In this document: positions 40,451 to 42,955 of the stretch, in pieces
Numbering within the stretch: position 1 is the first letter of the stretch
Layout of the letters: every line of letters begins with the position of its first letter
Origin: Hysterangium stoloniferum
Taxonomy: Eukaryota; Basidiomycota; Agaricomycetes; Hysterangiales; Hysterangiaceae
NCBI GenBank assembly: GCA_015178975.1
Contig: WHVD01000096.1
Span: forward strand, 267,480 to 331,479
Direction: 5' to 3'
DNA length: 64,000 nucleotides
Made by a program: the position numbers and the translations under genes
The notes under the pieces: model-generated
What the model saw: the letters and a program-made list of their open reading frames with translations, nothing else
Databases searched by the model: none
What the model was told of the DNA's origin: nothing

Positions 40451-42955
40451 TTACAACTTCCCCTTGTATTGTGCCAGGCGAGTCCGTTTGCTTATCCTAT
40501 GTAAACAACCGCTTAGCAGCAGCCACTCCATACACCAGGAAGCGTACATACCCAGTATGCTGCACGGGGTGAGGAGTATTTGTATTGCCGTGGACCGTCT
40601 TCCGGTCATTGATGGGAACATAGTCTCGCTTACCCTCGCCAACGTAGATCTACAATGGCATAAATACTAAAACCAAACAGACCATCCAAGCAAGCTCTTA
40701 CCTGCCGCGGTCGCCAAATTTTCACGCCGCCTTGTTGCAACATCATCTAAATAAGGATAATCGATTGGTCAGTGCACAATTGGCAAGCGCCGAAAGCCTA
40801 ACCTGACGCCAATGAGCAAGCCAGCCAACCACACGTGGGACGGCAAAAAGGACTGGGAAGAAATCAAGCGGAAATCCTAAGTATCAAGATGCATGAGGTG
40901 TATTTTCCCAAATGATGGTATATATAGCTCTGAGGCGTACCCATGGCACGATAAATGAGACCACTATCCGATCATGGATAAACGTGCGATTTTCACTAAT
41001 TACTTGACGACTCACCTCCTACAAAAATTGGACACGTCAGAAACATTTTTGGTTGCAAAGGAGTAGTCACACTAACCAGAAATCCACATTTGGCGCGAGT
41101 TTTCTAGATTCAAGATTCAGTGGTAAGTGTGGGAAAAAAAATAACACAACTTACCGCTTGGTAAAAAATTCATCATTCATCGCTACATCATGCAGACGCA
41201 TCGCCGTGTCGAGTAATTCGTCTTGACCAGTGCTGTAGGAAATCTCTAAGTTTCCTAGAATCAAATGGATGTTGACGTCACTTACACTTTGAATACTTCA
41301 TCCGCAGTCTTACGCACAATGAATGATCGTGGATCGGACTAAAAAAACGTAATCAGAAAACCTGTTGCAATACATCAATGTATATCTCACAGTTTTATAA
41401 ACTCTAGGAATCCGAGCAGGTCAGCGGGAAACGGCCCAATAGTCAAAGTGCGCACCGATGACCAAACCCAGAGAGGACTTTCTCCCTTCTCTTCACCTGT
41501 TCGACAAACTTGGGTACATTATCTGGACTACCAATCGAGATCAACATCCTAATAACAGCCTCGTTCGCGCCACCATGGAGGGGACCATATAATGACGCGC
41601 AGCCAGTTGAGATCGCTGAATACGGATCGACGAGCGAACTCGCAGTTTGGAGGACAGTGGTGCATGATGCATTAAGTTCGTGATCTGCATGCAGAAGGAA
41701 AAGAACATCGAGTGCCTTTTCGAGAACCGGGTTGGGAACGTAGTTTGCTTCACTAAGATGGTCCATCTGGTATAAAAATCTTGGTGGAGAACGCAATTAA
41801 TAATTGATTGTGCTAAAATCATCCCAGGACAGACTCACGAGCCGGTATAACTGAGGTTGTGTGGGGGAACAACGAAGGGGCGACCTTGGCGGACGCGGTA
41901 AGCCATTCTGGAGAGGAGAATAAATATTTAACAGTAACGCGACATGGAATTTTACATACGCAGCGAATGTAGTGGCCTTTCCGATCAGACTGTTGTTATC
42001 AAGGTTTAATATATATGGTTCATTCGATTGATACACATGCGTACCGGTAAATTTGTTTGTCCATATTGGCAAGCGAGGCGGGGTCATCTCTGGTATATAG
42101 TGTCTGGCCTTCGAGAGAACAGAGTAAGAAATATGAACCTGTTACTATTCATCCTGGACAAACCTTGCAGTGAAGGATTCGCCTTTTCAGAAAGTTCAAT
42201 GTCCCCTATAGCAGGTACCAATGAAATTCTTACACACCTCACTGTAATACGATCCTAACGCAGCAAACGAGCTTGTCAAAATAGCCATAGGATGCGCGTC
42301 ATATCTTTCAAGACCTCATCATCCCAAAACAAGCTACAAAATGACATCCGCATACCGGAATGACCGAAACAACTCCTCCGCGTCCACATGTGCAACCGAG
42401 TGGTGCATGACCTCGCCTTCAAAGGTACGATATTGACTTTGCGTAGGGAGTGATCCATATATGAGCAAATATGCCGATTCCAGGAAGGACGAGTGCACTG
42501 CAAGCTGTTCGATCGGATATCCTCTGTCACCAGAACTCTTAGCAAAAGAAAAATGGGGGACGCATGTGTATGCTATATACCTATAGCGCAAAACTGCCCA
42601 GTCCATCAGAAAATGACATAAAACACTACCATAGTCACTCACTTCCAGCCTCGCCATCAATGTAAGTGATCTTTGAGTTTATAACGGCGGTGTTGAGGAA
42701 ACCCTTGTCTAAGACTCTTAACCCCCGCTCTGTCTCATTCTCCTCGCGTTCCCTGGGACGACGGGGGCCTGCAATGCTCTTAAACGCTGTTGCTGTTATA
42801 GCATTATCTACGATCCTGTCCAACAAGTTGATCTAGGTAAACATGCCATGACCAGGGAAGATATATCATAGGACTAACGGGATGGTGTACGTCTTCCCAG
42901 TGCGGTTGTCGCGCACTGTCAATGATTCAGAGTTTGAGTTGGCTGGTTGACCCAT
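40451..42955 (-). CDS. citrate synthase, 20 exons including a candidate 3-nt exon
   Basis: Condenses acetyl-CoA and oxaloacetate. Exons (minus): 42879-42955, 42643-42815, 42581-42593, 42356-42523, 42238-42304, 42164-42182, 42045-42108, 41960-41989, 41839-41907, 41456-41779, 41391-41403, 41286-41338, 41155-41232, 41077-41103, 41016-41018, 40941-40963, 40803-40876, 40702-40746, 40552-40649, 40451-40490; 485 aa. Landmarks: LTVRDNRTGKTYTIP, LRYRGYPIEQL, YDAHPMAIL, LHADHELNAS and GPLHGGANEA (catalytic His pair), PNVDFWSGLIYRAMG (catalytic Asp), VAGWLAHWR-type GWLAHWRQ. The C-terminus is AQYKGKL. The start at MGQPANSNS lacks a presequence; an upstream in-frame ATG at 43132 would add about 59 residues. 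The compartment is therefore unsettled: peroxisomal or cytosolic if the short form, possibly mitochondrial if the long form. Confidence 0.9.

Follow-up and report, generated by a model that had tools for sequence, protein, structure and literature searches.

A predicted 3-nt exon beside the presumed catalytic aspartate codon of a citrate synthase gene in Hysterangium stoloniferum

Can three bases serve as an exon in the part of a citrate synthase gene that specifies the active-site loop? This question is raised by a locus on the minus strand of a 64,000-nt stretch of the Hysterangium stoloniferum genome (contig WHVD01000096.1; hereafter the window), in which the trinucleotide GAG is located between two intron-like sequences, shortly after the codon for the Asp of an NVD motif, a residue which we take to be catalytic.

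The gene concerned, of the GltA-like type, was modelled by hand at 42955-40451 (minus strand) as 20 exons and 19 introns specifying a protein of 487 aa, with intron ends likewise being picked by hand, and once spliced the model is open from ATG to TAA without internal stop, over 1,464 coding bases with the stop codon counted. All 19 introns are of the GT-AG type and measure 49-64 nt. The gene is very intron-dense, its numerous introns of roughly 55 nt being suggestive of a basidiomycete, and its spliced model contains further tiny exons on the same strand, being exon 3 (13 nt, 42593-42581), exon 11 (13 nt, 41403-41391) and an exon of 19 nt (42182-42164). The predicted protein matches the Pfam family PF00285 (Citrate_synt) with 406.2 bits across profile positions 1-357 of 357, and this full-length domain, combined with the NVD catalytic motif, identifies it as a citrate synthase of the GltA/plant-peroxisomal-like kind. 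Its best matches in the PDB are a plant-type citrate synthase 3, peroxisomal (9x0i, 482.6 bits), and 8qzp, while its best NCBIfam match, the bacterial PRK05614, is below threshold (474.6 versus a cut-off of 505), as is a second bacterial equivalog (440.3 versus 485.15). The predicted C-terminus is GKL (window 40451-40496, minus strand), which presumably resembles a peroxisomal PTS1 tail; this tail and the plant peroxisomal match hint that the enzyme may be located in peroxisomes.

Direct reading of the minus strand places the end of exon 14 (27 nt, 41103-41077) at GATTTCTG (GTG GAT TTC TG), that is, the Asp codon, a Phe codon and two bases from the codon after that. This is followed by intron 14 (58 nt, 41076-41019), which extends from GTTAGT to TTTTTGTAG, by the three bases GAG (41018-41016), which the splicing model treats as exon 15, and by intron 15 (52 nt, 41015-40964), which extends from GTGAGT to CGGATAG. 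Exon 16 (23 nt, 40963-40941) consists of TGGTCTCATTTATCGTGCCATGG and supplies the rest of a Ser codon, followed by GLIYRAM. As an exon of phase 2 to phase 2, GAG contributes the last base of the Trp codon TGG and the first two bases of the Ser codon AGT, and it is flanked on both sides by complete introns with canonical AG and GT ends (TAG/GAG/GTGAGT). Joining with GAG generates the peptide NVDFWSGLIYRAMG, whereas joining without it generates NVDFCGLIYRAMG. Every base and coordinate that the preliminary description had given around GAG proved correct upon this re-reading, as did its statement that skipping GAG preserves the frame at the cost of a 113-nt intron and of the Ser residue, yielding NVDFCG. 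It had also regarded 58 and 52 nt as normal intron sizes for the window, which agrees with the introns of the citrate synthase gene itself and of its mitochondrial-type paralogue (see below), the two genes used for this comparison. An intron of 113 nt would, in contrast, deviate by approximately 14 SD from the 17 introns found elsewhere in the gene (49-64 nt).

Splice products of the interval 41103-40941 were enumerated by removal of GT/GC-AG stretches of 40-140 nt in zero to two steps, with nested and recursive paths included. This generated 113 products including the unspliced form, and nine of the 113 are in frame without a stop codon. Five of these nine retain both NVDF and GLIYRAM, namely NVDFCG, NVDFWSG, NVDFWLSG, NVDFWLVG and NVDFWLVSG. 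The family spacing NVDFxSG is restored in NVDFWSG alone, and the sole route to this product is to excise both the 58-nt and the 52-nt intron, whichever of them goes first. Stwintron-like nested introns were also considered and rejected, as the two-step enumeration yielded no competing NVDFxSG product.

The length of this loop was next compared with that of homologous proteins. Of 36 homologous loci read, 33 gave an open reading frame matching the query, corresponding to 34 rows or 33 distinct proteins (the protein being identical at loci L012 and L015), and the remaining three (L014, L016 and L018, which belong to a single divergent genome) contained no query-matching open reading frame at E 1e-5. 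All 34 rows are ungapped over PNVDFWSGLIYRAMG and have Ser as the residue aligned with position 7 of PNVDFWSG, in a sample which is biased, being drawn from the top matches in a single bacterial phylum group and supplemented by three bacterial loci from a contig scan. Inclusion of GAG, resulting in NVDFWSG, fits the NVDxxSG motif that had been invoked in its favour, and the residue count in the loop, for which an alignment to other fungal citrate synthases had been proposed, agrees in these bacterial homologues with the GAG-included length. In the loop alignment, SG is found in 25 and SA in 9 of the 34 rows, and Ser is preceded by Trp in 3/34; the plant peroxisomal citrate synthase 3 has the loop sequence NVDFYSGLIYRAMGFP. 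The homologues found are exclusively intronless bacterial sequences, and the genome set searched contains no relative of the present genome: a search for a fungal orthologue found none, the genome_contigs scan having returned the three bacterial loci and the viral_contigs scan no locus, and a PHROGs search with a short query piece yielded no match. When queries of 96 aa (with GAG) and 95 aa (without GAG) were compared against the PDB, all 44 matches common to both scored higher with GAG, a gain of which a small part is trivial, owing to the one extra residue, and the GAG-less query forced a gap at the loop in all five alignments shown. The Pfam score likewise decreases, from 406.2 bits with GAG to 395.6 bits without.

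Splice-site scores were obtained by a leave-one-out procedure trained on only the 19 hand-chosen introns of the citrate synthase gene itself, and within this set the acceptor preceding GAG ranks first of 19 (score 6.3) and the donor following it second of 19. The donor of intron 14, GTTAGT, ranks 8th of 19 (score 7.2), and the acceptor of intron 15 ranks 11th of 19. Competing sites obtained lower values, being -1.1 for the acceptor TAGGAG, the use of which implies a zero-length exon, and 0.9 for the donor GTGACT. Intron 14 contains a branch-like motif, CTGAC, at 41040-41036, with the A at 41037 positioned 19 nt from the intron end, and the branch-like motif of intron 15 is weak (TGAT, with its A 9 nt from the end). 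At the donor of intron 15, reading GAG/GTGAGT, the microexon itself constitutes the exonic part.

In order to estimate how often such an arrangement is produced by chance, the 113-nt interval was subjected to 20,000 dinucleotide shuffles with its first and last 6 bases kept fixed. A stop-free 3-nt exon in an AG-NNN-GT context with both introns measuring 45-70 nt appeared in 1,559 of these shuffles and one which also restores Ser in 165, and no shuffle of the 20,000 contained a Ser-restoring 3-nt exon that in addition had YAG and GTRAGT sites.

Based on the sequence, the coordinates, the frame, the uniqueness of the product, the loop length of homologues and the site scores, all computed here, GAG at 41018-41016 is very probably (at a probability of roughly 0.93) a real and normally always included 3-nt exon of the citrate synthase gene, flanked by two ordinary introns and spliced by means of intron definition. 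According to the established view, the splicing machinery of fungi recognises introns as short as these across the intron itself. Considering that both flanking introns appear to be ordinary short fungal introns, each with its own complete splice sites, the spliceosome would pair sites across the introns, and the 3-nt exon would never have to be recognised as a unit. Given such recognition its size would be no obstacle, as two normal introns would be removed successively, with intron 14 and intron 15 leaving in either order. The downstream donor would read GAG/GTGAGT both before and after removal of intron 14, and would therefore be strong whichever intron leaves first, because GAG represents positions -3 to -1 of that donor. 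The predicted product restores TGG AGT (Trp-Ser), and with it the fixed-length NVDFxSG loop following the presumed catalytic Asp. We infer that splicing in the cell follows this model, through intron definition and with constitutive inclusion of GAG; the arrangement itself may have originated from two neighbouring intron insertions or from a shifted splice site.

It is very unlikely that GAG is not an exon and that TTCTG is spliced straight to TGGTC by removal of one 113-nt intron, resulting in a loop (NVDFCG) which is one residue shorter. Such an intron has GT-AG ends, is in frame and stop-free, and its product is still scored as a citrate synthase by Pfam at the 395.6 bits given above; its length, however, deviates from that of the other 17 introns, it deletes one residue, and with it the Ser, at a position where 34/34 homologous rows are ungapped, and it leaves a near-best acceptor and a near-best donor idle at precisely the right place.

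We consider it similarly improbable that both forms are made, with GAG acting as a regulated cassette exon or recursive splice site through which a measurable share of inactive or altered NVDFCG protein tunes or switches off citrate synthase. GAG, at 3 nt, leaves the frame intact whether present or absent, the tandem acceptor TAGGAG directly abuts GTGAGT, and a microexon switch of 20 nt has been reported for Xlr2 of Trichoderma in the available text of PMC11121469. Skipping may proceed by way of the single 113-nt intron or by a second route, overlooked in the preliminary description, in which the weak acceptor TAGGAG at 41016 is used, leaving a zero-length exon, prior to recursive splicing at GTGAGT. 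A read joining TTCTG to TGGTC is therefore by itself no proof of a 113-nt intron, because the zero-length-exon route generates the same junction. The acceptor at GAG nevertheless scores -1.1 as compared to 6.3 for that at TAG, the skipped product lacks the Ser present in 34/34 homologous rows, and the splice sites of the microexon are among the best of the gene, strengths which argue for constant inclusion; low-level missplicing at GAG is possible, yet it would represent noise. The earlier proposal that inclusion or skipping could change the active-site loop finds, as a switch, no support in the sequence beyond the frame-neutral length of 3 nt, given the strong sites and the Ser in 34/34 rows.

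Other exon boundaries, being the donor GTGACT (NVDFWLVG), the 2-nt exon TC with its GTGTGA and GTCAAG sites (NVDFWLSG) or GAG combined with GTGACT (NVDFWLVSG), are extremely unlikely, as their products, all stop-free and in frame in the enumeration, insert one or two residues into a loop that is ungapped in homologues and the donor GTGACT scores 0.9 versus 7.2 for GTTAGT. As candidate structures, the single 113-nt intron, the GTGACT donor, the 2-nt exon TC and the zero-length exon were all rejected on loop length and, for the sites that were scored, on site strength.

Ultra-small exons are rare but already known, fungi included, and the 3-nt citrate synthase exon adds a case. The view that an exon of this size is near the limit of what spliceosomes can define does not agree with the transcript support available for 1-nt exons in plants (PMC8831610) and in a Fusarium P450 (PMC12940212), according to the accessible parts of both reports. 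The Fusarium example, in CYP621A P450 genes, is a 1-nt exon backed by 20 orthologues and 18 RNA reads (PMC12940212). As described there, it resembles the present case in that an ultra-small exon within a conserved motif (in that instance PKG) of a fungal gene restores the motif length, and in that an apparently over-long intron (139 nt as compared to a median of 56 nt) resolves into two normal ones; it differs in measuring 1 nt, such that its skipping breaks the frame, in occurring in ascomycetes, and in being backed by orthologues and RNA, whereas the GAG exon is predicted from the sequence of one genome. The plant genes APC11 and VPS55 contain 1-nt microexons in Arabidopsis and other plants, which, as reported in the part of PMC8831610 available, are likewise ultra-small coding exons overlooked by annotation, with strong GTRAGT donors at the VPS55 exon; they differ from the present case in belonging to plants and in having both cross-species conservation and RT-PCR and RNA-seq confirmation behind them. 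Published exons of 2-5 nt in Arabidopsis, Drosophila and humans, and the 8-nt exon of CYP5141A1, a P450 of Phanerochaete chrysosporium, are recounted in PMC12940212. The P450 genes of this basidiomycete are similar in being rich in short introns (45-55 bp) and in containing tiny exons, of which some are located in conserved motifs, but the shortest P450 exon given in the accessible text of PMC1184071 is 6 bp, as compared to 3 nt in the present gene, which specifies an enzyme of central metabolism. The arrangement is also reminiscent of stwintrons (spliceosomal twin introns), in which, as far as the sources available describe them, two adjacent introns mimic one long intron and are perhaps removed sequentially; in a stwintron, however, a splice element of the external intron is broken up by the internal one, whereas both citrate synthase introns are complete, with an exon between them and no splice element interrupted at GAG. 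Nelson and Syed suggest, in the portion of PMC12940212 available, that micro-exons with G at both ends are favoured inside conserved motifs, a suggestion which GAG fits. A published report of a 3-nt citrate synthase exon was not found in a literature search covering mostly non-subscription journals.

GAG would join the few ultra-small exons of fungi as a well-defined 3-nt exon, located beside the catalytic Asp codon of a housekeeping enzyme. Ultra-small exons are easily missed, and gene finders could here drop an active-site residue without breaking the frame. Because both flanking introns are ordinary, the locus may offer a clean natural substrate for asking whether intron definition alone suffices for exons of near-zero length. 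Regulated skipping of GAG, if it did occur, would amount to control of citrate synthase through one residue of the active-site loop.

A DNA search of the same genome for a second allele or duplicate matched the window itself only. The paralogues present on contigs C13 and C190 represent other citrate synthase types, and speak neither for nor against the microexon. That on C13 (L011, G000:C13:81500-85000) is of the mitochondrial type, its 11 exons being separated by 10 introns of 50-72 nt, and its loop NVDAHSG (NVDAHSGVLL) is located inside one exon; a tRNA-Phe (GAA) is present downstream of it (L011 413-341). The C190 copy (L010, G000:C190:581200-584800) is a third, intron-rich citrate synthase relative, whose loop, NVDATSG, is by eye without an intron at that position. 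Downstream of the citrate synthase gene in the window, a gene at approximately 39985-39200 (minus strand) appears by eye to specify a small secreted protein rich in Ser and Pro, which begins like a signal peptide and is hydrophobic at its end.
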